From positions 1 to 64,000 of the forward strand of contig JAENRP010000166.1 of assembly GCA_024741835.1 (NCBI GenBank): a stretch of 64,000 nucleotides of DNA. Reading direction: 5' to 3'. Positions 14,915 through 50,290 of the stretch are shown one piece after another. The notes under the pieces were generated by a model that saw only the letters and a program-made list of their open reading frames with translations, was not told where the DNA came from and did no database searches. Every line of letters begins with the position of its first letter. Position 1 is the stretch's first letter. The position numbers were made by a program, and so were the translations under genes. This stretch comes from Diplocarpon mali. Taxonomy: Eukaryota > Ascomycota > Leotiomycetes > Helotiales > Drepanopezizaceae.

Positions 14915-14937
14915 ACTCTAAGGCCTAGCCTATAAGT
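14915..14937. repeat. Palindromic module, site 1 (leader)
   Basis: Same site at 50,891-50,913 (copy A) and 61,840-61,862 (copy D). It is one of two sites in this element outside a reading frame. Confidence 0.8.
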
Positions 14938-14996
14938 AGAAGGATAAAAAGACGTCTTTAAATAACTTAAGACTGCTATCTACTTTTTTAATATTA

Positions 14997-17270
14997 ATAT
15001 TAGAAAATACTAAAAATAATAATAATTTTAAACTTTTTACTAACCTTTTATTTAAATCTTTTCAAACTTGTCCTAATCACTTTAAGATTGACTTAGATTT
15101 TAAGCATTTTTTAAGCCCTTTTAAATTTCGAAGTACTCCTTTTAGTAATCAATCTTGCGATATTAAAGCTTCCCCTTTGCCCTTTATAGATTCTATTAAC
15201 CTAAACGGTTAGTATAAAACGATAATAGCCGCATTTAAGGCTATTATTAGCCACTTTCCCCTCCTTAATTCCCTTGGTACTCCTTACTTTATAAGAGCTA
15301 ATATTACTAATTTCCTTAAGTAATATAAGGAAACTTATTACGATTTTAGTATTCTATAAGCGGATATAATTTCTTAGCTCTTTTACTACTATAACTATAT
15401 AAGTAAAGATATTATTAAATCCCTCTTTAAATGGAAAATGCATAGTTTATAAGAACTCCTTATTAAGGCTCTTAAGTCTAAATTCTATAAATTTGACAAA
15501 TAGCAGATTTGCGATACTTTAGCTTTCTTAAAGGAATTTGTTTTAATCACTTAAACTCTTAAGGAACTTAAGAATTACTATCGGACTTTTACTTATATAT
15601 TAAATACCTTAATTGACTAGAAAATACTTAGCAAAGTTGAAAGAGGCCGCCTTTTCTTACTTAGATTACGTATTAGCCTTTAAAATAAGATCATTAAGTA
15701 TTTTAGGATTAATAAGTAAGACCCTATAACCTTTACCTTATTTGAGGAATTCTCGGCCTTTGCTTTAAAATCAGATCTTAATAAAAGAACTATTAATACT
15801 ATAGAATAGGAAAAAGCCCTTACTCCCTCTTATACTAAAGACCTTAAGAGCCTGGTCTAAGAATACTTAAAGGCTCTAGAAGTTATAAAAAAGGCAAAGA
15901 AGAACCTAGTAGTTATACCTTTTACTCATAGGCCCGACCTAAGAGTAAGATCTAACCTTAAAATTAAAGAACTTAAGACCTAATTTATAAAACTCTAAAT
16001 TTAAAGCTTAGAAACTAGGATTAATAATCTCTTATAAGAAAAATAGCATATTCCCTAATTTAGTAATAGGCAAAACTCGGCTACTATAAGCTAACCTAGT
16101 AATTCCTATTACTAAACTTCTGCTTCTTATCATTCGGAACAACCAACTAATATAAGAACTTAATAGTTAACTAAAGAAGGAGAAATTGATCCTAACTAGC
16201 ACTCTACTAATATTAATACTATAAGGTACTAAGGGAATAGTAATAGAAGAAGACTAACTTACAACTTTTGCAATAATAAGGAACTTAACTGCCCTTTATA
16301 TAAGTATTATAATAATTATCCTCTTTTCTATTATTTTATTAATACTAGGGTTATATATATTAATAAGTATAAGATGCTTTGCATTAGAGATCCTAGGCTA
16401 GATGCTATCCCTATTAAAAAACACCAGAATCGTTTATAACTATAGATTATTCAAATAATAATATATAGTATAAAGTAGAATAAGGATTTGGCCGAACAAA
16501 AGCGCATTATCGAAATAACCACTAAGGTCCTAACTTATATATATATAGGTCTAGCTAGCAATCTACCTAAGGGAGTGCTTACTAATTAAACTTCAAACTA
16601 GACTACTACTAAAGTTAAAGGAATCTTTATTTTAAAGTAGGTTAATAATAATATATCTGCTAATATTAATACTACTTTTATATTTAAAAACCCTTAAAAT
16701 ACTTAGCGTCCTTCTAGATTTATAACTCCCTTAATACTAATAAAACTAGCTAAAGTCCAGAAATCAATATATATAACTTAGGAATTTTAATATAGAGTCC
16801 AAACGCTAAAAGATACCTAATAATTTAAAACTATAGTAAATAAAAATGAAGCTAATATAGTAGACAAATTAATTAAAGATATAATAGACAAAGATAGCTT
16901 TAAGCTTAAAGATTAAGAAGTTAAAGTTATTATATAGACCCTTGACCTTAAGCGAAGGAGATAGATATTAAAATAAGAAAAATTCGTTAATAAATACGCT
17001 AGTTCAATTGCAATAGAGAAAGCTATAAAGAATATTATAGCTTAGCAAATTAACCTTATATTCAAAGACCTATTTAATTTAATTAAACGCTTTAATAAAG
17101 TGCTAAGAAAGCATATCCTAATTGCCTTTAAAGATTTAAATAATAATAAGGAAATAGAAATTATAGTATAAAAGAATTTCAAAAGCACTTAGCCTTAATC
17201 AAATGTCTTTAAATTACAAAAGATAAAGGAACCTAAAGGTATTATAATATTATAGTAATAGCCTTAATAT
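14997..17270 (+). pseudogene. gag: gag relic of giant Gypsy copy B
   Basis: One frame runs from an ATA at 14,997 (still ATG in copy A at 50,831) to about 17,230-17,270, roughly 750 codons, with internal stops explained by Gln/Trp codons. It would be the capsid/nucleocapsid polyprotein. The middle (about 15,220-16,000) is helix-rich and charged. A cysteine-rich patch at 16,261-16,330 (four to six former Cys after RIP correction, better kept in copy D at 63,190-63,250) is probably the nucleic-acid-binding knuckle, but spacing does not fit a clean CX2CX4HX4C. A palindromic module at 15,924 is in frame, read Thr-His-Arg-Pro-Asp-Leu-Arg-Val. Confidence 0.7.
15924..15946. repeat. Palindromic module, site 2 (gag, in frame)
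   Basis: Same site at 13,338-13,360 (A) and 62,849-62,871 (D). It is read in the T-x-R-P-x-L-R-V phase. Confidence 0.85.
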
Positions 17271-17839
17271 CTTAGAATATCAATTAAAATTATTTAGCAG
17301 TTATAATAAAAAGCCTTATTATTATTTATTTAATAGAAGAATCAGTTAAAGCAAAGGCTTTAATCAATTATAGTTTAAAAGTTAATATAATAATTAGAAA
17401 AGTGGTAGAAATAGCTTAATTAATAATTTATTAGCAATCGACTTCTTATATATTCGATTATCTTTAAATTAAAATACAATTTTAATAGATAGGTGAAAAA
17501 CGTAAAGGTTAGAGTCAGAGGGATTATTAATTATACCGACTTTCTAATAATAGAGAATTCTTTAAATGATATTCTTTTAAGAATACCTTTCATTTTAAAA
17601 TCTTAGCTAATATTTAACTATCCTAAAGATAGTCTTATAAAAGCTAATCTTTAAAATATAGATCGATCTTTAAAAGGATAAATAGTTATTATAAGAGATA
17701 TAGCCGAATTCTAAAATAAGGTTTTAAAAAATGATTAGCTAGTATAAGGGCTAAGCTTAATACTAATAAAGGAAGGTACTTAATAAAGAGTTATAGTAAA
17801 AGGAAGATAAGTTTGCCGATTTTAAATAATAGCAATTTA

Positions 17840-17862
17840 ACTCGCAGTCTTTAATTAAGAGT
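17840..17862. repeat. Palindromic module, site 3 (pol, in frame)
   Basis: Same site at 11,422-11,444 (A) and 59,498-59,520 (C). Copy B is the most degraded of the three. Same codon phase as the others. Confidence 0.8.
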
Positions 17863-18001
17863 CATATCTGGAATTTTAAAGAATAGTACAATTAGTATTT
17901 TATTAGCTTAACAATTAAGAAAAAAGAAAAATAAGGTAAAGAAGAGAGTTCGTTTTATAAATTTTAATTATTTATTAATTATTTTAAAAAACCTAAAAAC
18001 C

Positions 18002-18024
18002 ACTTATAAGCCTGATCTACAAGT
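18002..18024. repeat. Palindromic module, site 4 (pol, in frame)
   Basis: Same site at 11,260-11,282 (A) and 59,336-59,358 (C). Read Thr-Tyr-Lys-Pro-Asp-Leu-Gln-Val in B. Confidence 0.85.
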
Positions 18025-19968
18025 GAAAAATAATAAAATTACTAATAATATTTCCATTTACGCACTTTAAATTAATAACTTAGAAAATCTTTTATTTATT
18101 TTTAAAAAGGAAAATTCGAACCGTTTTATAGGATTTGATAAAAAAGGAAAGAAGTAAAGAAGTATAGTATTAGCTAATATTTAAACTATATATAAAAGCA
18201 AGGCTAATAAAGTACAACTAGTAGATTAGGGAATCTCTAATAGCTTAAAGTTTAAAGGATTAGATAATTAGTTTAAATAAGATAAGAAGCTTTAACCTTT
18301 AAAGCTAGATAGCAAATTCGATAAGTTTATTATAGGCAGATTTTCTAATAAACCTATTAGATATCGGCTAATAAAAGAACGTTTTAATATACTAAAAATT
18401 AAAGGTAACTTAATAGAGTAAGAATGCGAATTACTTTATAAAACCTTAATAAATCGAGAGGACGCTTTAGCTTTTAACTAAATGGAACTTAGCTAGATTC
18501 GAGAAGAGGTTACACTTTATATTAAGATTAAGATAATACCTTATAAAGCTTAGTAAGAGAAAACATTTAAGGTCCTTAAAGCTCTTTAAGAAAAGGTAAT
18601 CGAAATATTAAAGGATAGGCTAAAGCAAAGTGTTCTTAAGTTTTGTAATAGCCCTTATAGGAATAAATAGTTCCTAGTTATTAAGAAAGAGAATAGAACT
18701 TATAGATTAATAATAGTAGTAGTAGAGATAAACCGAATAACTATTAAAGATACTAATATTCTTTCGAATATAAATAAGATCTTAAATGAATTTATAAGAT
18801 TAACCTATAGCTCTCTTATTAACTTCTTCTTTAGATATAATCAATTTATTCTTAATATTAAATCGAAAGATATAATAGTAATTCAAACCCCTTTTAAGCT
18901 ACTTTAAATAATAAGATTACCTTAAAGAGCTATAAATTCGATCGCTCAATTTATTTAAGTAATCTATAAGATACTAGTAGATTATATACTTAATATTACG
19001 CTCCCTTATATAAACGATATAAGAGTAAAAGGATTAAGATCATTTTATAACTATAAAGAAGTTCTTTTTAATATATAATAATTTATAATAGAATATATTT
19101 AAAACCTAAACTAAATGCTTATACAATTCGAAAGGGTAAAAGCAATAGTTAGTCTGAAGTTATAATACTATCTTCTATTAATAGAAATTATTAGTTTTAT
19201 TACTGATTCCAATAGCCGAAGTCCTTAAAGGGCTAAAGTACTTAAAATCGATAAATAGAAGAGGTATAATAATATAGCAGAGGCTTGCGCATTTATTAGT
19301 ATTATAGTATACTATTACATTTAGATTAAGGATTTTGCTAGAAAGGTAGTACCTATTTATACCTTATTTCGAAAAGGGGCTAAGTTTTAATAAGAGGAAC
19401 CTTAAATGGAAGCTATAAAATAACTAAAGTAAGCGTTGCTTAAAGCACTATATCTAATTAAAATAGACTAAAGAGCTAACGCTAGGCCAATTATACTAAT
19501 AATTAATATAAGCTTAATCAGATAGGGTACTATCCTTTAATAAGCTAATAGCTAATAGAAAAGATATTTAGCTTACTTTAAAAGCAGTCTTTAAAATCTA
19601 TTAGAGATAAAGTATAATACTATTAAATAGGAATGCAAAGGAGCTTTAAAGGCGATAAAAAAGATAAGAAGCGACTTTTATAGCACTTACTTTATCCTTA
19701 AAATTAATGCTAAAGTGCTAGTAGAATAATTAAATAGGGCTATAAGCGATCTCTTAAGGGCTTTATTAATAAAATGGATTACTTAGATAAAACTAATAGA
19801 CTTTAAAGTCAAATATATTTTAAAAATAAAAAATACTATCGCAAATAGCCTTTTAAAAAGAACTTATCCTTATCCCTTTAATTTGATTAAAGAAGATGAA
19901 ATAGATATTAATAAATAGGTAAAGAATAAAGTTAGTTATCTATTAATATATTACCTTAAAGGGACTTA

Positions 19969-19991
19969 ACTCGCGGTCCTAGCCTGCGAGT
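19969..19991. repeat. Palindromic module, site 5 (pol, other frame)
   Basis: Same site at 9,293-9,315 (A) and 57,369-57,391 (C). Near-perfect palindrome. It is the only coding copy read in another phase (Leu-Ala-Val-Leu-Ala-Cys-Glu). It lies between RNase H and integrase, a linker. Confidence 0.85.
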
Positions 19992-21403
19992 CAAATAAGA
20001 GAATTTTATTACCTAACTACTTAAGTAACTTTAAGGAAATTGCCAAATTTTTAGTTATACTTAAATAACTAAAGATAATTCCTTTTAAGGATTTTCAAAA
20101 GTTTAAAGCTAAAGCTCTGATTTATTTAATATAAGGATAGCGATTTTTTAAAAGAAGCGATAACTCATTTCTTATATAGTTCTATTTGAATAATAATAAA
20201 CTGCAAGCTAAGGCTATTTAAGATATTTATAAAGAGACTGGCTATTAAAGAGCTAAGTCTACTTATTACTAACTCTTAAGAAAATTCTTTTAAAAAGGCT
20301 CTTTTAAAGACTATAAAGCTTTTGTAAAGAGTTATATCCTTTATTAAAAACGAAAACCTAATTATAAGGAAAATCCCTTATTCCTAACCTAGCCATTAGG
20401 CCTTTTCTATAAAGTTAGTCTTAATATTATATAAGTACTAATAACCGAAAATAGGATTATATATTTTATTTTAATAAAGGAAGACCTATTAGGATAGCCT
20501 AAAGGATAACCTTTAAGATCTACTAACTCTAAATCTATTATAAAGTTCCTTTAAGAAGATATAGTCTATCGCTATAGACTTTTTAATAGACTAACTATTA
20601 ATAGAGGCCTTGAAAATAAAGGAGTAATTAAAGCTTTTTTATAAAAATATAGCATTAAATAAGTTTAAATCTTAGTATATAACTTGAAAGCTAATAAAGT
20701 AGTAAAGCGAGGATATTACAATATTCTTAATAAGCTATTTAAAGTTACTTATAAAGGATTTAAGAATTAGATAAAACACTTTTATAAAATACTCTTTACT
20801 TATCGAATGATAATTTATAAACTGATTAGAGTTATACTATTTTTCTTTATCTATAATAAAGAGGCATAGCTCCCTCTTAAATCCTAATAGCCTATTTGGA
20901 AATTGTTTAACTATAGTCAAATTCAAAACCGTTCCGATTTACTAATAATAAGATACCGACAACTTAAGCTCTAAGATATAGATATAAAGGAAATCATTTT
21001 ATAAAAGAAATAATATAGGAAAAAAGCTAAAGAAGCATAGGCTGCTTTTAAAGTACTTAAAACGCACTCTATTTAAAAAGATAATCTTATCCTAGTTTAT
21101 AACATTATAAGAAGCATTAATATATCAGTAGATACTAAACTTAATTAGTAATAGCTTAGCCTATTTAAAGTTAAATCTAAGTAGAAAGAAAAAGGATACT
21201 ATTCTCTTTAAGAACTTAATAGAGTTAATATTAAAGGGACCTTTGCAACTAACCGACTAAAACGCTTTTATTAATATAACTAAACCTTATTCCCTTTAAA
21301 AGACGAATTAGAAATTGATATAACCTTCGAATCTTCTATAGGAACCGATAGCAATATAAGCAATTTTAAACCCTTAGACGAAGACTAAGATTTTTCTAAC
21401 TTA

Positions 21404-21426
21404 ACTTATAAGCCGGTCCTGCGAGT
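21404..21426. repeat. Palindromic module, site 6 (pol tail, in frame)
   Basis: Same site at 7,858-7,880 (A) and 55,934-55,956 (C). In B read Thr-Tyr-Lys-Pro-Val-Leu-Arg-Val within the acidic C-terminal tail. Confidence 0.85.
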
Positions 21427-22666
21427 AAAGAATATTAAAATACCTAACTAATCGCGACCTTAAGTTATTATTCCTAAAATATCTAAAGAACGTAAATAGG
21501 AATATTAAATAATTTCCTAGCTTATTAATTATCCTACCTTCCTTTAATCCTTATTTTTACATTTTTAGCAAAGTCGCCTCCTTTATTATTTAAGATATAG
21601 ATCTTTTAAGATCACTTTAAATTCTTATTTGCTTTAACTTATTTTATATTCTTAATATTAGCCTTTAATTATAGCATTCTTATTACTTTCCTTAAATAAT
21701 AAATAAAAAGTCCAATTTCCTTAATATATATATAGTAAACCTATTATAGCTTATATACCCTTTTAATTCTTATACCCTATTAAACTCTCTTATTTATACT
21801 CCCTATCTTTCATAAGCAATATACCTTTAAAGAACTTATAAATGGTTTTATCTATTATAATAGGAGATAAATAAATACTAGTTATAAACTTCTCTTAAGA
21901 CAGTAGAGCTATTGCATTATTAAAGAGCTTTAAATCAACCTATATAGCTTTAGGAGATATAAAGTAATAAAAACTCCTTTTAGCTTACGCAAATGCTATT
22001 AATAACCTTTTAACTTAAGTGGCCTTTAGAATTCTTTAATTTGATAACTTCCTAATTAAAGAATTAAAACTAAAGGGAATCTTTAGAAAGGAATTCTTAG
22101 CTAATGCAGATTAATATATAACCTTAGCTAACACTTTTAAAACGGACTAAGATAAAAGTAAAGAATCTATTTAATAATTAAATAATTTAACTACTAATAA
22201 AAAAGGACTCCTATTTCGTTTGCGCTTTTTAATAAATATTAATTCTAATAATAAAAGGCGAGTATTATTAAAAATTCTTAAAGAAAACACTCTTATAGTT
22301 AAAGCTATTTAGATTCTCAATTTCTTTATTATTTAAAAAGGAGTAGTAAAATTCTAAGGCAATCGAATTCGCGGTTGCAGATTTATAGGCCTATCTAATG
22401 CAGTACTTATAGCAGCTAATAAGGCTATAAAAAGATCAAATTAGGCTATAGATATTACCTTACCTAATAATACTATTATTAATATACTAAGGCTTTGCGC
22501 TTCTACTTATATTTTACTTATTTTAAAAGAGAACTGGACTCCTATGCTAGGATTTAAATAAGATTTCTTTAGTAATAAAGAAGGGAATTGGTTATTTATA
22601 ATTAAGCCTACTTTAAAATTCGCTTCTTAATCTAAAGATATAATAAGTGCTAAACTATATAATTTA

Positions 22667-22689
22667 ACTCGCAGTCTTAAACTAGGAGT
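22667..22689. repeat. Palindromic module, site 7 (ORF2, in frame)
   Basis: Same site at 6,594-6,616 (A) and 54,671-54,693 (C). Confidence 0.85.
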
Positions 22690-24052
22690 TAAAAGTAAGA
22701 ATTTTAAAACTAGACCTAACCTACCTCTTATTGAAATAATTCTAGAAACTACTATTAAACAAACTGCCTAAACGCTTAGCGCAGCCTCTTTAGAATTTTC
22801 AGAATCTTTAAAGGACTCTCCTTTAGTTAAATAACCAATTTTAGCTTAACCTTTAAAAAGGATAGATCGTTCGATAGCCACTTTAGCTAATTTGTAATTT
22901 GAAACTAAAGGATTGCGCGCTCGCTTAGACTCCTTTTTTAATAACTTAAAGGAGCTAGTTCTTAACTTCTTTATATTTATATATAACTGTTTTAGAAATA
23001 ATAATATAAAAGAAGACCCTATTCCTACTACTTTGAAAATAATTAAGAGAGCTATTAGATAGATTTAATAGCTTACCTTAAACGAATTCGCCTTTGCGAA
23101 TATTATTCAATTCTTTAATAATTATAAAAGTTAAGAACCTAGTCTTATAGATATTAAGCAAGACTATTTTATTTTATAAGAAAGAGAACGCAAAGAGGAA
23201 TCTATTAATTAGGATATTTATAATTATAGTAATATACTTTAATCAGTTATTCTTAACCTTAAGCTTAAAGAATAATATAATATTTAAGTGTCTTTTATAA
23301 TAAAAACTCACTTTTGATAGTATCTTCTTAGCGTAGGAATCGAAGGGAGAAGACTTTACAACCTTTATATTTGCTCTCTTTCAGTTTACTATAGTCTTAA
23401 TTATAAAGGATTTAATATTAATAAAACTATTAAATACCTTGAACTTCTTTATATAATAGAAGATATCGATCTTTTTCTAATCTACTTTAATAATTAATTC
23501 TTTATTTCTTTAAAGATACGTAAATCTAACCTATTAATAATAGAGGCAACTCTAAGTACTGCAAAATTTAAGGCTAATTCTAAAGCCTTAAAGGCATTAG
23601 AGCTAATTGAATAGAATAATTCTTTCTTTTCGATATTATTAAGCAATAAATAGCAAGAGGAAATAAAGGAAGAAGGGTTAATTATAATGCTTAAACCCTT
23701 CGGATGCCGCTTTTTAACTGATAATTTTACTATTAATAATAGTATTATTATAGGTATATTCCTTTCTATTATAAGATAAGAAGTAGAGATATACCTTTAT
23801 CACTTCTACCTTATGGATAATACGACCTCTATACCTTCTTATTTTTTCTATAATATAATATTCAATCTTACTTAATAAGTCCTTTAGATATATTATAGAC
23901 TCTACCTCTTAGCTATAATAGCGAAAAGTAGAAGAGCCTATTAGCTTATAGCCTACCTTGAACCTCTTTAATTAATTAGTCTTAGTTTTTATAATTAAGT
24001 CGTTTTAATAAAGAGAGATATAAGTGCTACTAATAAAGAAAATCCGATTATT

Positions 24053-24075
24053 ACTTATAGTCTTGGCCTATGAGT
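24053..24075. repeat. Palindromic module, site 8 (ORF2, in frame)
   Basis: Same site at 5,209-5,231 (A) and 53,284-53,307 (C). The C copy is one base longer, a rare indel. Confidence 0.8.
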
Positions 24076-24937
24076 TAATATTACTAATAAGCGATTCTTA
24101 AATTATTAGATCCTATTGATTAGATAAGGCCCTGCTTTAGGAAGCCTTAATAGGTAGATCGGCTCTTAATCGAATATAAAACTTACTCTATTTGCAAAGA
24201 AGATAAGTCGATAGACTTCTTAAGCACTTAGTTCAAAATCTCAACCGGCTCGAATGATTATAAAAATGAAGCGAAAGGAGATCTTATAACCTATTATTAA
24301 TAATAGCAATCTAATTATAATAATAATAAAATAGGAATAACTTCTTAAAATGCTTTCGAATAATTCTTATAGAATTGGTAGTTTTATAGCCTTTTGCAAT
24401 AACTATATAGTTATTTATAATAAGAATACTTTAGAAAATAAGACTCGAATCTTTAATCTTATCTTTTCAATCTTTGCTTTAAAGCAACTTCTAATACCTT
24501 AATAGATTAACGCAAGTAGAACTACTATACCTTTTAAGGCAGCTTTTTATCTTAAGAACTATAGTAGCCTTTCTAAAGCCATTATTAGTTAACGCTCTTA
24601 GATAGACCCCTCAATTATAATCGAAGTATGGAAGTTGTTTCTTCTTAATAAAGACGAATTGAAAATCCACCTTATAGAATATAATTAGAAACTCTTTAAT
24701 GCTCTTATTAATACTTAGATAAACGTTATAAATACTAAGTCGCTTTTTTATAGACTTAAGTCTTAGGGATAATGCAATAAAATAAATGCTATCTAAGAGC
24801 CTAATATACTAATTAATAAAGATATTATTATAAGAAAATTCGGAAAAGAGATAAGCCGAAATACTAGTATAATACTAGACCCTGATTTAGGAACCAATTC
24901 CTTGTTTTTACCCTTAAGCTTAAAAACGCTAAGATTA

Positions 24938-24960
24938 ACTTGCGAGCCCGGCCTGCGAGT
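24938..24960. repeat. Palindromic module, site 9 (ORF2, in frame)
   Basis: Same site at 4,324-4,346 (A) and 52,399-52,421 (C). One of the best-kept copies; read Thr-Cys-Glu-Pro-Gly-Leu-Arg-Val. Confidence 0.85.
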
Positions 24961-25138
24961 AAGGTTAGACTCGGCTAGCTTTAGCCTATAAGATAGTTCG
25001 GATAAACTTCGGCTACTAAACCTAGGGGTATAAATAGAGGTTCCTTTAATAAAGGCACTTAAATTAGAGAAATCGCTAAGAGGTAAGAACTAACGCAAGA
25101 GAAGAAGACTCTAAAGTAACGACAGAATCGATAATTAA

Positions 25139-25712
25139 GTCAAGCAATTTAGAGAATCTAGCTTATTACCTTTAGAGAAAACCATTTAGAGAACTTACGA
25201 ATTCGAATTGAATCTTTTTTTTAGATTATTTACTTTCTATATACTAGTACCTCTTTATTCTCTATTTATTATTCTATTCTATATATATTCTTTACTCTAC
25301 TTTATTCTTTATATAATCTATCCTTTAATTATTTCCTTTATATGCAACTTTCTAACGCTTACCTTTGAAATATTATCCTTACCCTTAATAATTGTCATTT
25401 ACCAATTATAGGTCCTTATATACGTTATACCCTACTTTTATTCCTACTTTCGGCCTCTTTATACCCACTTTTCCTTTGCGCGCTAATACGATTCCTATCT
25501 TTATAAATAAACCTCTCCCTATACTACAATTATACTTTTTTTTACCTTTTCTATAATCCTACCAAATCCTAGCACTAGTACTAATAATACTACTAGTATT
25601 ATCTCTCTATTGTCAATCTTTTCTGATTAAAGCTTCTAGTCTTAATAAATTCTTTTTAAAAGATTTATTCTTCTACCAGTTGAACCCTATCCCTTTTGTC
25701 AAATAATTCATT
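25139..25712. other. Spacer between ORF2 and ORF3 of copy B
   Basis: Pyrimidine-rich, AT-rich stretch. A 67-codon hydrophobic open frame at 25,208-25,411 is not open in copies A or C and is not supported as a gene. It may carry the signals that express ORF3. Confidence 0.5.
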
Positions 25713-26600
25713 ATAGCACTATTAAGCATAAGCAAAAAGGCCATACTTAAGAAGAGCATAGCTGTCGTCGCATTAGGCAGTAAGACTTTGGTCGCCCTTA
25801 GCAATAAACTAATATTAAAGGGAGGATTCTCTTAAGATAGTAAAACTTTAAGATTATTAGAAGATATTATAAGCACCTATAGAACATTAGGTGAAATAGA
25901 ATAGCAAGTATTCTTAAACTCATCTATAGAGGTATTGAACTATAGAATTTCTACTATAGAAGAAGGATTTCTAGGATTTGATAACTTCCTCGAAAATGAA
26001 TTAAAAACCATAGGTATTAATTAGGAGAAGTTTTTACAAGAATATCAAGGTTATACTAACTCTATGGACTTATTTCGGAAGAATAGAGATAAAAAGGAGG
26101 AGTGTACCAAAAGACTATTGCAGTTTACCGGCAGTACCTATAGCATATTATTCCAGACCCACTTTATAATAGATATTATTGCTAATAACGCCCTACAGGG
26201 GCTTGGCAAAATTTTTAAGATATACTAACCTATAGCAAAAGCCATATAAGTGTTGAATTACTTTACTATCTAAGAAGGTATAAAAAAGCTAAAAGGAAAT
26301 AATGCGCGAAGTAGGAAGTTTGTTAGGTTCTTAAGCACTATTGTACACTTTGCCATTTAAACTATAAAAGATAACCCCTTATAGTATGATAACTTAGCGC
26401 TCCTTAACTAAATAGTTTTAAATACACTTGGACTATAGTAGTTATAATACGGTCTACTTATTGTAAAAGAAAAGATGGTTTACCTAGCCGAGTATATTAT
26501 GAACTTTTTCAATAATAAGATAGAGAGATAGGAATTTGTCGTATCCGCCGCCCCAAAGCTGCTACCACCTCCGGTAGAACAAACTAATAAGGAAAATTTG

Positions 26601-26623
26601 ACTTATAGGCCCAGCCTACAGGT
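26601..26623. repeat. Palindromic module, site 10 (ORF3, in frame)
   Basis: Same site at 2,664-2,685 (A). Read Thr-Tyr-Arg-Pro-Ser-Leu-Gln-Val. Confidence 0.85.
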
Positions 26624-26786
26624 GGAAGTACCATATAAGGAGGAGGTCCTTAAGCATAAGGTGCTTATAATACTAAGAATATAAATTGCTGACTATTAAG
26701 ACCCTTATTTATTAGACTTAGATGAGTTTGAATCGCTATCTTTAGAAATGCCTAAAATACCTTATATACTAGTAGTAAAGAAACTA

Positions 26787-26809
26787 GCTTACGGGCCCGG
26801 CCTATAGGT
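26787..26809. repeat. Palindromic module, site 11 (ORF3, in frame)
   Basis: Same site at 2,478-2,500 (A), 186 bases after site 10 in B. Read Ala-Tyr-Gly-Pro-Gly-Leu-stop(Gln)-Val. Confidence 0.85.
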
Positions 26810-28016
26810 TAGAATATATAATAATATAGACTCAGAAGATAAGCTAATAAATAAAGTAGATAGCCCTATTACTAACGTATTGGAAATTTTTAATAATATT
26901 AAAAAGGATTTATCCAATATCGTATAGGCTTTTCCTAAAGATTTGCAAAAGTTTGTTTTAAAATTCTATAAGTCTATAATAAAGCGTTTAAAGAAGGAAA
27001 ACCGGGGAGATGTTTTATTAGCATAAGAGGTAATAGTAAGAGCTATTAAATAAGTTATAAAGCTATAATAAGACGCATTTTCTATAGATAATATTATATA
27101 GTTCTTTATCGACTATAAGAGAATGAAAGGCGACTACTATATTCTTAAGAAAAAACTAAAAGATAGTATAGCAATTATCTTTATAGAATATTATTAAGTT
27201 CTCCTTAATATCAAAATGATACTATAATATAGTAATAGATTCAAGATAATAGTAATACTAGAAATAAAGATACGACTAAGCAGATTTGTAATAGGAATTT
27301 CTAAAGATACTAATAATAAAAAATTTTATACTCTTTATAAAAGACAATATGCGTAGTACTATAGGTTAGTATCAACCGGTCTTAATAATAAAGATATATT
27401 ATCTAATATTTATAAGTTTTATATAGCTCTAAACTTGAAATTTTTTTTATTATATCCCGGAAATTATACTATTATAGCTACTAGCAATAGAATAGCAAAC
27501 CAAGTTAAGAAGGATATATCGTTAGGCTTCTCCAAGTTCAAAGTAGCACTTAAAGCCTTTAAATTATTCTATAATATCGCCTGGACCCTAGCTTAGTATA
27601 ACGCTATACTAACTAATAATATCTTAATATCACTTTGCAGCAAAGGCTTCTTAAATATGCCTAAGTTGCTTAGCTATGCCTTTTTAAGTACTATATATAC
27701 GTATAGTTATAGTAATTATAAAAAGAATTCATTTTTAATATTAGCATAAGAGGAGCTAGAAATATACTAATACTATTTCCGGACCTTAAATAAGAAGCCA
27801 AGCCCCCCCTCTGCCTTCCTTTACAATATAACTCATAGCTTAATATAGCAGACCTTAAGGATATACTATAGTCTGTATCTTAGTGCTCTATTAACTTATC
27901 ATAATTCTTTATATAAGCTAGTAGTATATCCTAAGCTTATATAGTTTATAGGCATTAACTACCATTTGCGAATTGTTTCTACTAAGATTGATACTAATAT
28001 AAGATTCGTAAGATTA

Positions 28017-28039
28017 ACTCTTAGGCCTAGCTTGCAGGT
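28017..28039. repeat. Palindromic module, site 12 (ORF3, in frame)
   Basis: Same site at 1,266-1,288 (A). Read Thr-Leu-Arg-Pro-Ser-Leu-Gln-Val. Confidence 0.85.
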
Positions 28040-28838
28040 TAATTCCCTAGATAGTAGAACTATTGACTATTATATAATCCCTACTATTAAACAGTTGACT
28101 AGAGAATTTGCTATATAGGAAAAGTCCTATGAGTCATCTACACTTATACTCTATCGTCTTAAGAACTCTTAATAGATCTTGCTAAATCTGGCATAAAGCG
28201 CAGCTTAATAGAAAGAATTAAATACTAAGGATAGAACAATTCTAAAGGAGTATATTTCCAATAAGACTATTCCGTTCTCTATATTTATAAGATAAGGCAC
28301 TTTCGTTAACCTGGACTCTGATAAAGAGCCTAGGAAGGGTGGTTTTCTTACTATTAATAACAACTATATAGAAGTTATTAGCAATAACACACTTGAGAAT
28401 AGAGCTGATTTAAAGGATTTCCTTATCGACTTTATTAATATAAAGAAGCCTTAATTGTTAAGATAGGGCGTAGTCTATGAATCTTCCGCGAGATTCTGAG
28501 CAATAATCGAAATGATAAAAGGTAGTCTATTATTAAAAGCTCTTATAGGAAGATAACTATAGAATAATCCATTAGTAGTAATGACTATAAAGGAATTGTT
28601 TGCAAAAGATATATCTTAGCTAATAGCATATCTAAAGAAGTATAAATAAGAACTTTTTAAAGATTTTACTAGTACTTAAAAGCTGGTTTAATAACTAGAG
28701 CTATAGTTATATAGTAATAAGTCTTAGATAAAGACTAAAGATATAGATAACAATATCGAAGCTAATAATATGATTGATAAGGCGATACTTCTTAAGAAGT
28801 ATAGCATTAAGAAGCCTTATGTAAAAACCCTTGATATG

Positions 28839-28861
28839 ACTCCTAGGCCTGGCTCGCAACT
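28839..28861. repeat. Palindromic module, site 13 (ORF3, in frame)
   Basis: Same site at 444-466 (A). It ends 18 bases before the Gypsy-2 target duplication. Confidence 0.8.
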
Positions 28862-28878
28862 TGATCTGGCAAAGGGCA

Positions 28879-28883
28879 AGGCT
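28879..28883 (+). other. Target-site duplication of Gypsy-2, left (AGGCT)
   Basis: AGGCT, repeated at 49,652-49,656. Copy A has one uninterrupted version of this site. Confidence 0.9.
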
Positions 28884-29094
28884 TGTTACGGCAGCTCATA
28901 GGGGTGATTGGCTTGTATTAGCTACCTAGAGGTGCGGTCTATAAAGGGAAGAAAAGACAAAGAGAGAAAGGTCTCTTCGACTCTTCTTTAAAGTTAAATA
29001 TAAAACGACTAACGCGAAGCTAGCGCGCGCTAGGCCAAGCCCTTTTCCAGCTCTATAAGCTACCGCCAGTTACCTTAACCTACGAGTTATAGCA
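28884..29094 (-). repeat. 3' LTR of Gypsy-2 (211 bp)
   Basis: Plus-strand ends TGTTACGG and ATAGCA. The outer left end is unmutated and the inner right end carries changes seen against the partner LTR. Contains a perfect 14-bp palindrome, CTAGCGCGCGCTAG, at 29,020-29,033. Confidence 0.92.
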
Positions 29095-29097
29095 TTA

Positions 29098-37700: not shown

Positions 37701-37703
37701 TAA

Positions 37704-38009
37704 TATTATAGCACGGTTATATTATAATCGCAATAGAACTGTCAGAGCAGGTGCAATAGAGATAGTAGTGCAATTAGAGGCGAAATAGACTAGTGCAATA
37801 GATACGCCGCACCTTTACTATACCTTTCCTTTAGTAGATAGAATATGACTTATTAGTAGAAATCGACTTCTAGGAGTCGTAGGCTAAGGAGAGCATATTA
37901 AGAGGAAGGCTTCCTACTTTATACATACTCCTTAGCTTTGAATTCTATACGATTTGGCAGCCTTGATCTCAGTGACTTTATCGACTTGTGCCTTGCTTCC
38001 ACCGTCACA
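37704..38009 (+). repeat. 3' LTR of Gypsy-3 (306 bp)
   Basis: Exactly the length of the 5' LTR. Start mutated to TATTATAG, end intact CCGTCACA followed by ATGTC. Confidence 0.93.
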
Positions 38010-38014
38010 ATGTC
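38010..38014 (+). other. Target-site duplication of Gypsy-3, right (ATGTC)
   Basis: Matches 29,905-29,909. Confidence 0.9.
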
Positions 38015-42977: not shown

Positions 42978-43238
42978 ATAGGGGGTAGTAGTGTATTTAT
43001 ATTAAAAAGGTGACGCTAAGGGGTATGAGGAAAGCTATTGTACTAAAAAGGTAGCGCTAATAGGAAAGGTTCTTCAGCTTTTTCTAAGACTGCCTAAGTC
43101 GAGATATAAGCATAAGAGGCACCTATTCGAAGGTCGAAGTAGGTAGAGGTATAGAGTCGCCAGAGTCATACTAAAAAGGTAGCGCCGACTTCGAAGTCTT
43201 CCAATTAGATATTACTACTTCCTAGCAAGTTAAAGGTC
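42978..43238 (-). repeat. Gypsy-2 leader with three 17-bp direct repeats
   Basis: A unit close to ACTAAAAAGGTAGCGCT (plus strand) occurs at about 43,002, 43,042 and 43,164. The region has no frame. It lies between the Copia insertion and gag. Confidence 0.6.
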
Positions 43239-43243
43239 TTTTC
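43239..43243 (+). other. Target-site duplication of Copia, left (TTTTC)
   Basis: Partner at 49,433-49,437. It goes with LTR ends TATTGAG and CTCAATA. If the ends are taken as TGAG and CTCA (189-bp LTRs) no duplication is found. Confidence 0.65.
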
Positions 43244-43438
43244 TATTGAGATGGGTGATACAGCCATCACTCCGATGTATTATCATATGACCCTACTGCT
43301 TAGTCAGTAGGATGTTGATATGTATATAGCTATAGGGAAGAAAGGGGTAACCTTCCTTCTTTAACTCTTACTAATATATCGACTATCGACCTTTAAAAGC
43401 CTCCTTTACCTATTGCGCCGACTCACTTAAGCTTAATA
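43244..43438 (+). repeat. 5' LTR of Copia (195 bp)
   Basis: Outer end unmutated (TATTGAGATGGGTGATACAG), inner end RIP-mutated (GCTTAATA against GCTCAATA in the partner). Confidence 0.88.
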
Positions 43439-43842
43439 GGTTATAAGCCCTAGCTAGACCGATAATAGATTATTGACTTCCTTTAGAAAGCACTTATGCT
43501 GCAACTATTAGTAGGAAGTTGAATAAGACTTATAGTAAGAGGTAAGCAATCGGCGAATAGGAGGTATAATTCCTTATTTAGCCAACCTGTATTGCAAGAG
43601 GTATGATTCCTTGCTTTATAATCCTTTGGTACTATAAGAGGTGTGATTCCTTGCTTTACTGTATTTTATAGGAGGTATGATTCCCTGCGTTATAGCTTAA
43701 AAACCCTTTTCGATAAGAGGACTTCCTTCCTATTTAATACTTCTATAATACCTGCTATTTAATCATTTCGACTTTTTAATAGGAGGAGTGCCTTTAACTA
43801 TTTAATTTATTTGATTTTAATGCAATTCTATTTGAAACGGCA
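43439..43842 (+). repeat. Copia leader with four 22-bp direct repeats
   Basis: Right after the LTR is GGTTATAAGCCC, a plausible primer-binding site. Units close to AGAGGTATGATTCCTTGCTT start at 43,559, 43,597, 43,637 and 43,671 (spacing 38, 40 and 34). No frame. Possibly RNA-packaging or transcription-factor sites. Confidence 0.7.
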
Positions 43843-46800
43843 ATGGCTTCCGATTCCGATTGAAATACTAAGCTTAAAGACCTCTAACTCTTTTAAAAGA
43901 ACTGGTAATAATAGTTCGACGATTTAAAGCTTTACTTTAAAAGCAAAGGTATTAAAATGGCGATTTAAAAGACACTTATTAAATACGTAAGAATAGCCCC
44001 TTATACTCCCTCTACTAATTTATCTACTTCCACTTTAATAGCTAATACAACTGCTAAGGATTTGCCAGATATACTAAATAAGTTTAGCCTAAGAGCTTTA
44101 GTAGATAATAACTAAGAATCCTAAAGGTAGATTTTAAATATGGAAAAGGAGAAGGAGTATAGGCTAGCCTTAGCTAAATATAAGCTTAAGATCAATAGAG
44201 GTTTAAGCGATAAAGATTAAGATTTTATTTAAGTTTATAATAATGCGAAGATAAGATAGGATACTTTAAAGGCAAAATACTCTTAAATAACTGCCTTTAA
44301 TACTTAGCATCTACTATAGTAAATCACTTTATTTTAATATAGAGAAGATAAAGATAGTAAGGATATAGATATAAATATAGACTTTGCTTAATCTATATTA
44401 TATAAAGCGAAGAGGAGAGTAAAAGCTGCAGATCCTAAGATAGCTATAACTTTTAGGGAAACTTAGCTTTTTAGTTTCCTACTTAATAGCCTCTCTCTTA
44501 AGTTCGCTATTATAAAACAATTTCTTCTTATCCAACCTAACCTTAAGATCTATAAGAAGATCGACCTCCTTTGAACTATTAAGTAAGACCTTAAAGGATA
44601 CTCTAAATCGGCAAATGCTATATTATAAGGTAACGATAAGCTTAAAAAGAGGAAGGAGCGCAGGACGAGCCCTTAAGCTCATCGGGGATGCTACTTCTAT
44701 AATAGTGCTTATAATATTACTAATTGTGAAGTTAGAAGGCAACTGATCGATATAGTCGCTAGCTTTAATATTAAGAAGTAATTGAAGTAAAAGTTAAGAA
44801 GCAAATTGCCCTTATCTTACCAAAGGCTGTAACTACTAAGGAAAGGCAAAGGCAAAGGAAAAGGCTATTTAGCCAAAACTTTAGCAAATACTTCTAATAA
44901 TAATAATAGGTCATTTGAATTTGAATCTACTTCTAATAATTTAAATAATAATTATAATAAAGATACTTATATCTTAAAAGCCGATCTTTATAAGATCCTT
45001 GAATCCGATTAGTATAATAATACTAGTTATATAGCATATATAATTGATAAACCCTACCTATTTAAAGGCCTGCTTACTAAAATAAAAAGGCGCTTTATTA
45101 AGGTTAGTAGTAGAAGGTTATATACGGACTCGATAAGTATAGTAGAAATGAATATCGCTAGCATTTCTTTCCTTTTATAAAATATTCTCTTTATACTTAG
45201 CTTAAGTATTAATCTTTTATCTAGCTCTAAGATCTATATAAAGTTAAATTGTATAAGAGTTTTTAATAATCAATTTATATAGTTTATAAATAATAACTAT
45301 AAAGTGATCTTTAAAGCTAAAATCAAAGATAGACTTTATATTATTTTAAAGGTAATATTATAGAAATTGACTCTTAAGCTGGACTTATAAGTAGATTCCT
45401 TTAAGGAAAGTGCACTCTCTACCCTAATACAATTGAGTAAGGATAGGAAGAATAGATGGACTCTAGAGCTAGGATCGCAAGTGAAATTTGTAAAAATAAC
45501 TCTTAAGCTAAAACTATAAGTAAATTATAAAGTGTTTTTAAAAATGACTCTTAAGCTAGGATTATAAGTGAATTTAATAGAAATAACTTTTAAGCTAGGA
45601 CTGCGAGTAGATTTTACAGATTCGCTAATAATAACTCTTAAGCTAAGATCGCAAGTGAAATTCGCGGAAATAATTCTTAGGCTAGGATTGTAAGTGAAAT
45701 TTGCGAATTTATTAGAAACGACTCTTAAGCTAGGACTACGAGTAGATCTTGCTATTTTTAAGAAATCGACTCTTAAGCTAAGACCGCGAGTAGATCTTGC
45801 GGTTTTATTAAAAACGACTCTTAAGCTAAGCTTACAATTGGAAAATGGCAAAACCTTAAACTGCTATTATTAATCCTTTTTAGCTGCTAATAATAAAGCA
45901 TCGATTAATAATAGGCTATTAAAGCTATTAAAAGCTGAAAGCTTATTAAGGTATTAGTTAATATATAGAAGATTTGCGCATTTCAAGTTAGAGAAATTAA
46001 AGGGCTTATATAAGGTCTTAACTTTAAAACGGAAGATTTAAGTACTAAAGGATTGCCTAGTATGCCGAATTTGTAAGCTAATAAAACTTTAAAATCAGAC
46101 GCAAACTAAGCTTAATCTATAGAAAGATTTAATACTAGCACTAATATCTATTAATACTACTAGACTATTTATAACCTTAATTAAAGGAAATAATTAGTTT
46201 TCTTAAATAGTAGATAACTCTATTTAATAGATATAGACTATTTGCGCTAGGATTAAATCTAAACTTATAGAAAAGCTAGAAACTTAGAAAGTAATAAAGG
46301 AACGCTAGACCTAGTTAAAGCTAATAGCTATTAGGTCTAATAACGCATTAGAGATTAAGGCAAAGCTTAATAAATAGGTAAAATAAGGAGTTTATTATAA
46401 ACTAACTATAATATATAAAGGTTCTTATTAGAATAGTATCGCTAAGCGAAATATCTAATAAGTAAAGACTGACTATCGCGCTTTATTATAAGATGCTAAC
46501 CTACTATTAGAATTCTAGGACCTTGCGGTTAAAGCAAACGCATACTTGCGAAATAGAATAGGTAATAGACTAATAGTCAATAGGACCCGAATATCGCTAT
46601 ATAAGGCATATTTCAGATAGAAATTAAGCCTAGACTATATCTGCGTCTTTAAAAGCATTTACTACTTTTATATTAGCCTAAAGTCCTAGCCTATAGGTAT
46701 AAAGAGTAAGAAGCTAATAGATTAAGGTAAAGAGTATATATTTGTTAAGTATATTAAATAGATAATAAAATAGTAGATAGTATATACGCTAGATCTAGGG

Positions 46801-48936
46801 CGAGTAATTATATCTTTAGTAGTTGAGTTTGATAAATCTTAAAATAGGAGGGAGCTATCCTTAAAGCTTTATATACTTAGAGATTCGCAAGGTATACTAC
46901 TCGACGGTAATACTATTAAGCCGAACTAATAACCCCTTTCTCTTAGCTTAAGAATATTAAGTGCACCTGCTGATCGACGACCTATTAGTCGCCTAAAGGC
47001 CGAATAGACTATTCCTATTATCTGCGAACTACCTAAAGTATAGAATAACTTTAATATTATTATCCCTTTAATTAAAGTACCTACGGTAAAGGATATTCTT
47101 AAAATAGGTATAAGTAATAATAAGCTTTTACTATTAGAAAGCGGTTTCTTAAATAATAAGCCTATAAAACCTATAGCTGAACCTACGTCTTTAAAGAGAA
47201 ATAGAGACCTAGAACTAAAAGATACCTTAGACGAACGCAAGTTTAAGTATATCTAGGCTATAATAGCGCATAGGATTTATAAGCTTAAACTTTAATAGAG
47301 CTTTGATAAAGATAATGCATTCTTAGCCGCTAGGGGGATAATGAAAATCTCTCTTCTAAAGATATATAATAAAGCTATTAAGGATCTAGAGAATAGAGCA
47401 GTATAAAATGAGGTAATTTAAGAGGAGATAAGTTCTTTTATTATAAATAGTATATAGATAGAGGAATTGATACTAAAGGATATGAACTTAGTTTTAATAA
47501 AGTGGGTCTTTATAATTAAGATATATGCAAATAGGACCTTAGAACGTTATAAGGCAAGGCTTATAGCTAAGGGCTTCTTTTAATAGTATAGAGAAGACTA
47601 CTTTAACACATTTGCGCTAATAGTTCGTATAGATACCCTTTGCATATTTATAGTAATAGTAGCCGCTGAGGACCTTGAATGCAAATAGTACGATATTAAA
47701 AATGCATTTACTAAAGCGATTATAAAGGAATGGATTTTTCTCTTTTAATCTGATGGTATTCCTATACGCGCTGGCTACTCTCTTTATATACTTTGTAGTA
47801 TCTATAGGCTTAAGCAATTAGCCTATGATTAGAACCTCTTATATAGCTCTACTTTAATAGAAATGGGATTCGTTTAAAGCCTAGCTAACCCTTGTTTATT
47901 TACTTATATTAAGTGTAGAATTAAGTTACTATTATATATTAATGATATTACTATAGCTATAAAAACAATTACTTAATTAGATTGGTTCTTTATAACAATT
48001 TGGAAACGTTTTAATACTAAGGATTTAAGGGGAATTTATAAGATCCTTAGCATCTGCGTTATAAGGAACTACTCCACTTAAGAACTCTAATTAGACTAAG
48101 AGTAGTATATTAAGAAGATCCTAGACTAAATAAGACTCTTTACTTATATTCTTAACTTTAAGCTAAAGTGTACCCTAATTAAAGGAAAGTATAATAAGTT
48201 AAAGCCTATTAATGAAAATAAGTAGAAAGGAAATCTGAAGAAGTATTAATAGGATATTAAAGCGATTATATATACTATGGTATATATAAGACCAGATATT
48301 GCCTTTATTATTAAGCAACTTAGTTAGAACTTAAAGGATCTGACAATTTGATATAAGAATATAGTCAAGCGACTTAGAAGGTACCTTTAATTAATAATCA
48401 TATAAAAGGTAAGATATAGATTAATAAAATATATAAGTGCAAAGCTTAAGGTATATACTGATTTTAACTAGGCAAATATAAAAGGTCGGAAAAGTATATC
48501 TAAAAGCGTAGTAGTACTATATAGCAGACCTATATTATAAGGAAGTAGGAAGTAGAAATTAATAGCTATTGCAAGTACTAAGGCCGAATATATATTAATA
48601 TTATCAAATTATAAGTAAGGATTATAAATCGCTTAAGTTCTAAAAGATATAGGTTTTACTAAGTATATTAGATAAGATAAGAACTATATTAATCTTTAAA
48701 TAGATAATATAAAGGCGATTACACTTGCAAAGAATCTATACTTATATAAGCGATTGAAATATATTAATATTACCTACCACTTTATCTGCGACCTTATTAT
48801 AAAGAATAAGTTATTAATCACCTATATCCTAACTAATCGAATAGTAGCAGATGGATTTATAAAGCTATTAGAAACAGTTGTAAAGTTCGAAGCGTTTAAA
48901 GATATACTAGGGTTGCAGAAGATAGTAGGGGCTTAG
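43843..48936 (+). pseudogene. gag-pol: Copia gag-pol relic, 1,697 codons in one phase
   Basis: ATG at 43,843 (Met-Ala-Ser-Asp-Ser-Asp) to TAG at 48,936, exactly 1,698 codons. Gag knuckle at 44,689-44,730 (Cys-Tyr-Phe-Cys... with His and Cys, spacing CX2CX4HX3C). Protease DTG, now Asn-Thr-Ser, near 45,018-45,029. Then the Pro-Ser-Leu-x-Ile-Asn-Leu-Leu segment at about 45,190-45,230, a ten-unit palindrome array (45,370-45,851), the integrase zinc finger (about 45,975-46,085) and core (46,120-46,640). RT is about 47,440-48,000 with its YxDD box at 47,929-47,950 (Tyr-Ile-Asn-Asp). RNase H is about 48,450-48,800, and the last 60 codons are still open. Almost every stop is at a Gln or Trp codon. 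Antisense open stretches here are shadows. Confidence 0.9.
45370..45851 (+). repeat. In-frame palindrome minisatellite, ten units, in the Copia polyprotein
   Basis: Units start at 45,370, 45,460, 45,499, 45,547, 45,586, 45,634, 45,673, 45,721, 45,769 and 45,817. Spacings are 90, then 39 and 48 alternating, then 48; all are multiples of three. Each unit has the 23-bp module read as Thr-Leu-Lys/Arg-x-Gly-Leu-x-Val plus a 16- or 25-base spacer (90 for the first). It lies between protease and the integrase zinc finger. An open frame on the minus strand (45,525-45,851) is a by-product of the repeat. Confidence 0.92.
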
Positions 48937-49237
48937 TAGACTTAAGGACGACTCCTAGGCCCGCCTTATAAGTTAGGTCATATAGTCTTATAAAGGAAAG
49001 TTTTTAAATCAACTCTTAGGCCTAGACCGCGAGTTAAGTCACGTAGTCTTATAAAGGAATGCTTTTAGGAAATTTGACTCCTAGTCCTACCCTATGAGTA
49101 GGGTTGGTGATTTTAATAGAGGTTGCTATTAATTGATTATTTTTAATTTAAAAAGATATTTAAAAGTTGGATTAGCGCAAAAGGATAGTTATTATTTTCC
49201 CGACTATAGGTTAATTAGAGTAAGGTCTAAGTAAGGG
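48937..49237 (+). repeat. Copia 3' tail with three palindromic modules in tandem
   Basis: Modules at 48,951-48,973, 49,012-49,034 and 49,077-49,099, 61 and 65 bases apart. The spacer after the first two (AGTCTTATAAAGGAA shared) is also duplicated, so the unit is module plus spacer. A weak polypurine stretch precedes the 3' LTR. Confidence 0.85.
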
Positions 49238-49432
49238 TATTAAGATAGGTGATATAGCTATCACTTTAATATATTATTATATAACCCTACTGCTTAATCA
49301 ATAGGATATTAATATATATATAGCTATAAGGAAGAAAGGGGTAACCTTCCTACCCTAACTCTTACTAATATATCGACCATCGACCTCTAGAAGCCTCCTT
49401 TACCTACTGCGCCGACTCACTTAAGCTCAATA
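49238..49432 (+). repeat. 3' LTR of Copia (195 bp)
   Basis: Inner start heavily RIP-mutated, outer end intact. Followed by TTTTC and then, within ten bases, the Gypsy-2 LTR. Confidence 0.88.
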
Positions 49433-49440
49433 TTTTCTTA

Positions 49441-49651
49441 TATTACGGCAGCTTATAAGGGTGATTAGCTTATATTAGCTACTTAAAGGTGCGGTCTATA
49501 AAGGGAAGAAAAGATAAAGAGAGAAAGGTCTCTTCGACTCTTCTTTAAAGTTAAATACAAAACGACTAGCGCGAAGCTAGCGCGCGCTAGGCCAAGCCCT
49601 TTTCCAGCTCTATAAGCTACCGCCAGCTACCTTGACCTACGAGTCGTAGCA
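49441..49651 (-). repeat. 5' LTR of Gypsy-2 (211 bp)
   Basis: Partner of 28,884-29,094. The plus-strand left (inner) end is RIP-mutated and the right (outer) end GAGTCGTAGCA is intact, followed by AGGCT. The 14-bp palindrome is at 49,577-49,590. Confidence 0.92.
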
Positions 49652-49656
49652 AGGCT
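49652..49656 (+). other. Target-site duplication of Gypsy-2, right (AGGCT)
   Basis: Matches 28,879-28,883. Confidence 0.9.
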
Positions 49657-49947
49657 AAGGAAGTGGTATCTGTGGAATCTCCCGCCTCCCTTTCCTCTAT
49701 TACCGACAATTCCCCTAAGGATGATGACGAAGATAATGATAATGCTATAACACAAGTTTCCCTTCCCGTCGATCAAAGTCGTTATACTATACTAGCATTA
49801 GCAAGAAGCATTAAGACTCCTGCCATACTAAGACCTGTCTCATCGGACACTAATAGCAATGCTATAAGAAGAAGTGGTCGTTTAGCAAAGAGAGTATTAT
49901 TTAGTAATAGTTCTTCCTATCCTTTAAAGAGAACTAAGGAAAACTAA
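49657..49947 (+). pseudogene. ORF3 of copy B, last 96 codons (still open)
   Basis: Continues ORF3 in phase after Gypsy-2; a GTG at 49,663 is not a real start. It has an acidic tract (Pro-Lys-Asp-Asp-Asp-Glu-Asp) and a basic C-terminus (Arg-Arg-Ser-Gly-Arg-Leu-Ala-Lys-Arg), possibly a nuclear-localisation or nucleic-acid-binding tail. Unlike the first 1,057 codons it has no internal stop and few RIP changes. The copy A version at 119-410 is clearly mutated. Confidence 0.8.
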
Positions 49948-50290
49948 TACCTAGGTTGGTTCTATTTTTAATTGTTTTTGCGATTCTATAGTTTGTTTAT
50001 TTGTATTGCTGGCTTCGTTTTCTAACTCCTAGGCCCGGCCTATAGGTGAAAGCGTATATATNNNNNNNNNNNNNNNNNNNNNNNNNNNNNNNNNAAAAAA
50101 AAAAAAAAACTCTTCTTTTTTTTCTTTTTACCTTTAATAAGGATATAGCCCTAGTTTAGGCCTTTTAATATATTAGTTTTCTTATACTTAGGGTTTTGCT
50201 AATAATTGATATACTATTGCCTTAACCTATATTGTTTTATATTCTTTGCTAATAATAGTAAAGGCCACTACTTTTATTATTTAGGATATA
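49948..50290. other. 3' untranslated region of copy B with assembly gap
   Basis: Contains palindromic site 14 (50,025-50,047), 33 N (50,062-50,094), then a run of 15 A. The part after the gap is AT-rich with no frame. No clear polypurine tract is left before the 3' LTR. Confidence 0.7.
50025..50047. repeat. Palindromic module, site 14 (3' untranslated region)
   Basis: Same site at 19-41 in copy A. It lies 78 bases after the ORF3 stop, outside coding sequence. Confidence 0.85.

Follow-up and report, generated by a model that had tools for sequence, protein, structure and literature searches.

A stretch of 64,000 nucleotides from the fungus Diplocarpon mali (assembly GCA_024741835.1, contig JAENRP010000166.1, positions 1 to 64,000; hereafter the window) harbors many copies of a short dyad-symmetric sequence, here called the module, which a preliminary description presented as a 23-bp palindrome that enters reading frames in one preferred codon phase. 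The module resembles a long-retained DNA signal more than a mini-element that is still inserting into genes. It is tentatively read here as a DNA word that acts in cis, measures at least 27 bp, occurs in several long terminal repeat (LTR) retrotransposon families and has been kept as a probable protein-binding site. A binding site is the best explanation for a sequence that is blind to orientation, roughly symmetric out to position ±8, the same in coding and apparently non-coding DNA, inconsistent in its RNA fold and found at matching positions in paralogous reading frames.

A+T makes up 70% of the window, and most differences among its retrotransposon copies are transitions, as repeat-induced point mutation (RIP) would produce. 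Long reading frames have not survived intact in it: there is no open reading frame (ORF) of 250 amino acids, and none of 120. The literal 23-bp palindrome gives 4 matches in the window at up to 3 mismatches; with decay-tolerant scoring, in which C>T and G>A count as cheap changes, there are 31 sites, against 0 in the reversed sequence. Symmetric and oriented forms together amount to 38 copies, and neither the reversed sequence nor any of five dinucleotide shuffles contains one, which bears out the dispersed dyad family and the positions first given for it. In the genome (search space 49.4 Mb, 676 contigs) the decay-tolerant pattern of the symmetric form has 422 sites (control 0). Only this form is a perfect palindrome; as a general description that term was rejected, many modules being oriented, with CCT in one arm and CGC or CGG in the other. 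The oriented form, ACTCCTAGGCCNGG[AC]C[CT]GCGAGT, coexists with the symmetric one and gives 2,100 strand matches genome-wide at up to 2 mismatches (control 0), some near-palindromic sites being counted twice; one variant has 119 exact matches. The left CCT half with a pyrimidine at position 13 occurs 4 times vs 11 times in the control and, being no commoner than the control, does not stand alone.

The unit is also longer than the 23 bp originally assigned to it. Among 214 modules sampled irrespective of their flanks, position -2 is a pyrimidine in 213 and position +2 a purine in 214; counted per context (n=26), -2 is a pyrimidine in 25, +2 a purine in 26 and +3 an A in 21. Genome-wide, the pattern with a pyrimidine at -2 has 618 strand matches (302 + 316), and with a purine there it has 0. 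Because both positions are as fixed as the core, the unit comprises at least 27 bp. Positions -6, -5, +6 and +8 are skewed too, roughly symmetrically: the core spans 23-27 bp and the symmetric tendency reaches about 39 bp.

The genomic surroundings were read from 132 stretches, drawn from among the matches listed and not a census. The 221 modules of the window and of stretches L001-L113 fall into 40 flank groups, 26 of which have flanks long enough to judge. These 26 contexts are not fully independent, four being units of one array, and many of the other flank groups are end units of the same arrays. A further 18 regions yielded 17 already-known contexts and one weakly matched context adjoining an assembly gap. 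Contexts recur in repeats with three exceptions (window 50025, L105:227 and L119), and the assigned ones all lie in retrotransposons. Within the 132 stretches, read without gene annotation and with three contexts unplaced, no copy in a host gene was recognised, and host-gene insertion was rejected as the main habitat. Runs of N adjoin the modules at window 50025-50047 and L119, and assembly gaps may hide more arrays. The context of flank group 12 (L039, L043, L050, L052, L094) found no placement in the window.

At least four families of LTR retrotransposon, two of them Gypsy and two Copia, carry the module, which is not confined to the two in which it was first noticed. Copy B of the giant Gypsy, in the window, has 13 module sites. 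The family's matches to RNase H and H2C2 are weak, below the Pfam curated cut-offs, and its reverse transcriptase (RT), without a Pfam match, was assigned by motif reading; the Gypsy label therefore derives partly from motif reading, as do all domain names used here without Pfam support, which are our own. Gypsy-2 matches RVT_1 (E 5.8e-26) and RNase H (E 1.6e-22), with integrase matches below cut-off, and carries modules upstream of the RT (L027:3037) and between RNase H and integrase (L027:4999). The Copia outside the window (RVT_2, E 3.5e-22) carries array B ahead of a weak Pol_BBD match (E 0.13), array A behind SH3_retrovirus (E 1.4e-07) and an extra module about 1.95 kb past array A, behind the last long frame. 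In L055, L057, L058, L060 and L064, array A is followed, in the integrase-RT linker, by KRGRP text that we take to be AT-hook-like. The window Copia (RVT_2, E 1.1e-21) has a ten-unit array, flanked by presumably protease-like and GAG-pre-integrase-like text (no Pfam hit), and three modules past the apparent ORF end. Most module sites fall in what appear to be inter-domain linkers or in 3' non-coding DNA, in keeping with the early suggestion that the module sits where a peptide insert is tolerable. One and the same DNA word appears in coding phase 1, in coding phase 2 and in apparently non-coding contexts.

Phase 1 is defined here by ACT as codon 1, and frames in decayed copies were read by stop density. 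For copy B of the giant Gypsy this suggests three consecutive forward frames, with a small margin in ORF1 and parts of ORF2. Ten of its 12 sites with an assigned frame are in phase 1: the phase is locally clear at six (18002, 22667, 24938, 26601, 26787, 28017), and at 15924, 21404 and 24053 it rests on the ORF-wide frame, local stop counts being close or tied. The preferred phase stands, and so does its one acknowledged exception, 19969 (phase 2); 14915, not named as an exception before, also looks out of phase (phase 2, less sure). With two Gypsy-2 sites, Copia arrays A and B and the window Copia array (taken once) added, and L027:1262 excluded as unreadable in frame, phase 1 is found at 15 of 17 coding sites, some weakly read, with both orientations represented. 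The chance of 15 or more is 4.5e-06 under a null of 1/3 and 0.0012 under a null of 1/2. The latter is fairer, because the oriented form carries a stop in one phase per strand (TAG, in phase 3 forward and phase 2 reverse), which leaves only phase 1 open both ways; that no frame contains a stop is true of the symmetric form alone. When the two paralogous pairs are merged, 13 of 15 sites are in phase 1, about 0.004 at 1/2 (hand arithmetic). The 1 in 7,000 originally calculated for 12 independent sites is overstated, since the C-terminal half of ORF2 (C-half) and ORF3 are paralogous with matching modules.

In one Copia ORF array B is reverse and array A forward, both in phase 1, so the phase does not follow from one peptide. 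Tandem arrays are present in both Copia families; the ten units of the window array do share one frame, as first described, its spacings being multiples of three in 9/9 cases, and the same holds for 23/23 hand-listed intervals. Among 32 Gypsy-2 copies matched on both flanks, the number of units varies between one (15), two (13) and three (4).

The ORF2 C-half and ORF3 (window 22000-25300 and 25700-29000) are paralogues with 26.5% identity (E 7e-64). The Pfam scan covered ORF3, which has no match. With the modules masked, two ORF2/ORF3 module pairs share a column in 4/4 alignments, and a third lies within two columns in 3/4 and 34 off in the fourth. Ungapped transversions number 19-30 per 60 in the flanks and 2-3 per 23 in the modules. 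Matching positions in ORFs only 26.5% identical point to an old sequence. Module 26787 of ORF3 faces a 21-residue gap in the paralogue in one alignment and is the single candidate for an occupied/empty pair. The ORF2 C-half and ORF3 lie beyond pol and are candidates for an accessory, possibly DNA-binding, protein.

Module-free copies were sought within families, and none was found in any family examined in this genome. In the Gypsy-2 query (57 rows; 40 of 152 candidates scored), 15 rows cross the site and contain 23 additional bases, 8 match one flank only, and 17 are split pairs whose gap would fit two units (13) or three (4). Three contexts of giant-Gypsy type (40 of 321 candidates scored) gave 38 rows spanning with 20-23 extra bases and two one-flank rows. 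Among the window copies a module-length stretch is present at 11/12 sites, that is, at every alignable one, 28839 having no aligned copy. A flank scan of long loci found gaps of 18-32 or of array length, and none under 15. A Gypsy protein of D. coronariae (P0002) joins RNase H directly to the post-module text, a junction that probably reflects a predicted intron and not a true empty site. The bases at -1 and +1 are equal in 8/26 contexts (shuffle mean 7.3), 2-bp repeats occur in 2/26, and repeats of 3-9 bp in none. By the criteria for miniature inverted-repeat transposable elements, inverted arms are present and a target-site duplication is absent. A target duplication was rejected, including a 1-bp one that would give 24 bp and save the frame; a 23-bp insert by itself would break it. 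Without a recognised host-gene copy in the 132 stretches or an empty site within a family, the currently mobile, gene-entering element of the preliminary description is not supported. The refuting condition given with that description comes out divided: the module extends beyond two families, yet no pair of empty and occupied sites turned up inside a family.

It is less likely that the module is instead a fossil mini-element of 23-39 bp, akin to the Rickettsia palindromic elements (RPEs), that once spread by some copying process between retrotransposons, reached about 26 contexts and was thereafter passed on by inheritance alone. In favour of this, almost the same word in contexts that are unrelated does require either copying or strong selection, the linkers occupied differ between the two Copia families (by motif reading), 26787 lacks a counterpart in the paralogous ORF, and the symmetric flank preference could be a target preference. 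However, such an origin fits poorly with the missing empty copies, target duplications and host-gene copies, with a length of 23 bp that is not a multiple of three, and with paralogues that share module positions across near-saturated flanks. Shared ancestry and tandem duplication within retrotransposons, without function or mobility, would account for copies inherited at one site and for arrays that vary in unit number, but this is improbable as the whole explanation: the contexts in Gypsy are unlike those in Copia, even a single element has different ones at different sites, and the modules remain recognisable where the paralogue flanks are near saturation. Nor is a peptide signal, in which T-x-R-P-G-x-x-V would serve to link polyprotein domains or to mark protease processing between them, a probable account. 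The phase bias, the linker positions and the frame-keeping arrays would suit it, yet the same DNA lies in apparently non-coding 3' DNA and in phase 2, the reverse orientation encodes a different peptide, and much of the variation concerns codons 2 and 6, the third positions of several codons being fixed. It is very improbable that the module acts as an RNA element in the transcript of the retrotransposon, such as a hairpin for packaging, priming or translation. The z-score of RNA folding is below -2 in 3/8 module copies: two of three symmetric copies fold strongly (about -3), as does one of five oriented copies (-2.3), whereas the other four lie between -1.4 and 0.2. Given these mixed folds, the weak covariation and an Rfam scan of the window with no family at gathering score, a hairpin was rejected as the common denominator.

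Several observations also weigh against the binding site. The binding protein is putative and deduced from DNA. Covariation between the arms is weak (highest z 3.2, with flanking pairs negative). The paralogue argument comprises three pairs in decayed frames, one of them 34 columns off in one of four alignments, and since these modules were picked by motif match, its weight lies on the matching positions and not on their likeness. Once copies are dead, decay in the modules is no slower than in their flanks (0.20 vs 0.11 transitions), which is what their higher G+C would predict, and there is no sign of present protection. Protection from C>T decay was suggested by a first comparison, in which copies were chosen by module match, and was dropped when a less biased one showed none. 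Homogenisation could mimic conservation. The module is not shown in other species, protein searches having found only D. coronariae or nothing: the relatives are two D. coronariae entries, one with a module-like peptide at the same place, which makes D. coronariae, the apple blotch fungus, the probable host, and of the array protein searches one gave no candidate and the other 4,413, none at E 10 or better.

If the binding-site reading holds, the outline TYN-ACTC..GAGT-NRA would be needed by living elements at several points along their length, most likely because a DNA-binding protein, encoded by the host or by an element, sequence-specific and probably of two-fold symmetry, would attach there and might for example resist silencing or steer transcription or chromatin. 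Selection would act on the DNA, and copies would therefore survive where extra residues harm least, in inter-domain linkers and 3' non-coding DNA. Modules would mostly settle in the phase that is open in either orientation, and linker copies would then multiply as tandem repeats in lengths that are multiples of three. Such a site would offer a concrete bait for a fungal factor on which transposons depend and would mean that constraint at the DNA level can dictate codon phase and linker peptides. Regulatory words shared in retrotransposon coding sequence would link genome defence, element survival and polyprotein architecture. It is conceivable, though somewhat doubtful, that Copia and Gypsy elements of one fungus share a dyad code of 27-39 bp, placed repeatedly in their polyprotein linkers and retained across deep divergence, through which these unrelated elements would use or exploit the same DNA-binding factor; this would be a fungal counterpart of anti-silencing target motifs inside protein-coding sequence. 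A fossil mini-element would, for its part, be a eukaryotic nuclear parallel to the Rickettsia elements. The module sites of the window are listed in Table 1.

Table 1. Modules and associated retrotransposon features in the window (copy B of the giant Gypsy unless stated otherwise)
Feature	Position	Strand	Remarks
Module near ORF1 start	14915..14937	+	phase 2, less certain
Module in ORF1 (gag-like position), reverse	15924..15946	-	phase 1 from ORF-wide frame, locally weak
Module in ORF2, heavily decayed	17840..17862	-	phase 1; translation only; presumed orthologues 11422 (copy A), 59498 (copy C)
Module in ORF2, symmetric form	18002..18024		phase 1
Module between RNase H-like and integrase H2C2-like stretches (sub-cut-off Pfam)	19969..19991		phase 2; orthologue 57369
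Module in ORF2	21404..21426		phase 1 from ORF-wide frame; local stop counts tied
Module in ORF2 C-half, reverse	22667..22689	-	phase 1; pairs with 26601 in ORF3
Module in ORF2 C-half	24053..24075		phase 1 (locally weak); pairs with 28017 in ORF3
Module in ORF2 C-half	24938..24960		phase 1; pairs with 28839 in ORF3; its orthologue 52399 is one mismatch from a perfect palindrome
Module in ORF3, symmetric form	26601..26623		phase 1
Module in ORF3	26787..26809		phase 1; without counterpart in ORF2 C-half
Module in ORF3, forward	28017..28039	+	phase 1
Module near ORF3 end	28839..28861	+	frame illegible
ORF2 region with extra C-half	17381..25300	+	stop-riddled; weak RNase H and integrase H2C2 matches
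ORF3, paralogue of ORF2 C-half	25263..28750	+	no Pfam match
Window Copia array, ten units, upstream of RVT_2	45370..45839	+	all phase 1; starts 45370, 45460, 45499, 45547, 45586, 45634, 45673, 45721, 45769, 45817
Three modules past apparent Copia ORF end	48951..49099	+	48951, 49012, 49077; spacing 61, 65
Module adjoining assembly gap, context unassigned	50025..50047	+	
Giant Gypsy copy A modules, corresponding sites	444..13360		444, 1266, 2478, 4324, 5209, 6594, 9293, 11422, 13338
Further giant Gypsy copies, corresponding sites	52399..62871		52399, 54671, 57369, 59336, 59498, 61840, 62849

The yeast mitochondrial GC clusters are short palindromic repeats in AT-rich DNA, some of them in a reading frame; unlike the module, they are mitochondrial and not borne by retrotransposons. 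The palindromic repeats of Fusarium mitochondria are short and fungal like the module, but they too are mitochondrial and not retrotransposon-borne (PMC7218506). Bacterial REP-type palindromes are likewise 20-40 bp long, palindromic and present in high copy number; they are extragenic by name, whereas the module lies largely in former retrotransposon coding sequence (PMC3733652). Exact-pattern scans of prokaryote and viral collections gave 0 matches each. A described fungal counterpart was not found in the literature searched, and its absence from print is not claimed; the term 'palindrom' occurs 0 times in the accessible main text of the Diplocarpon genome papers. The published D. coronariae genome has 51.2 Mb, with 20.74% Copia and 5.67% Ty3 elements (PMC11527701).

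The nearest anatomical parallel appears to be the RPE, in which no membership is claimed. RPEs are bacterial, about 100-150 bp long, form long RNA stem-loops and lie in host genes, where inserts are kept at the same site in many orthologues (PMC3767692, PMC2229807). Like them, the module is a palindromic repeat that leaves the reading frames it occupies unbroken and occurs in coding as well as non-coding DNA; unlike them, it measures 23-39 bp, folds strongly as RNA in some copies, is recognised only in retrotransposons and belongs to a eukaryotic nucleus. The nearest functional parallel, again without a claim of membership, would be the VANC system of the Arabidopsis VANDAL elements. Its targets are short words, dense in transposons, multiplied as tandem repeats and present several times per element, which an element-encoded anti-silencing protein binds (PMC5735166, PMC10398659). 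The module likewise occurs several times per element, has assigned contexts that all lie in retrotransposons and is multiplied as tandem repeats. VANC motifs are 9 bp long, mainly non-coding, in the same orientation and family-specific (PMC5735166, PMC10398659), whereas the module comprises at least 27 bp, lies largely in former coding sequence in both orientations, is found in Gypsy as well as Copia elements and has a putative binder.

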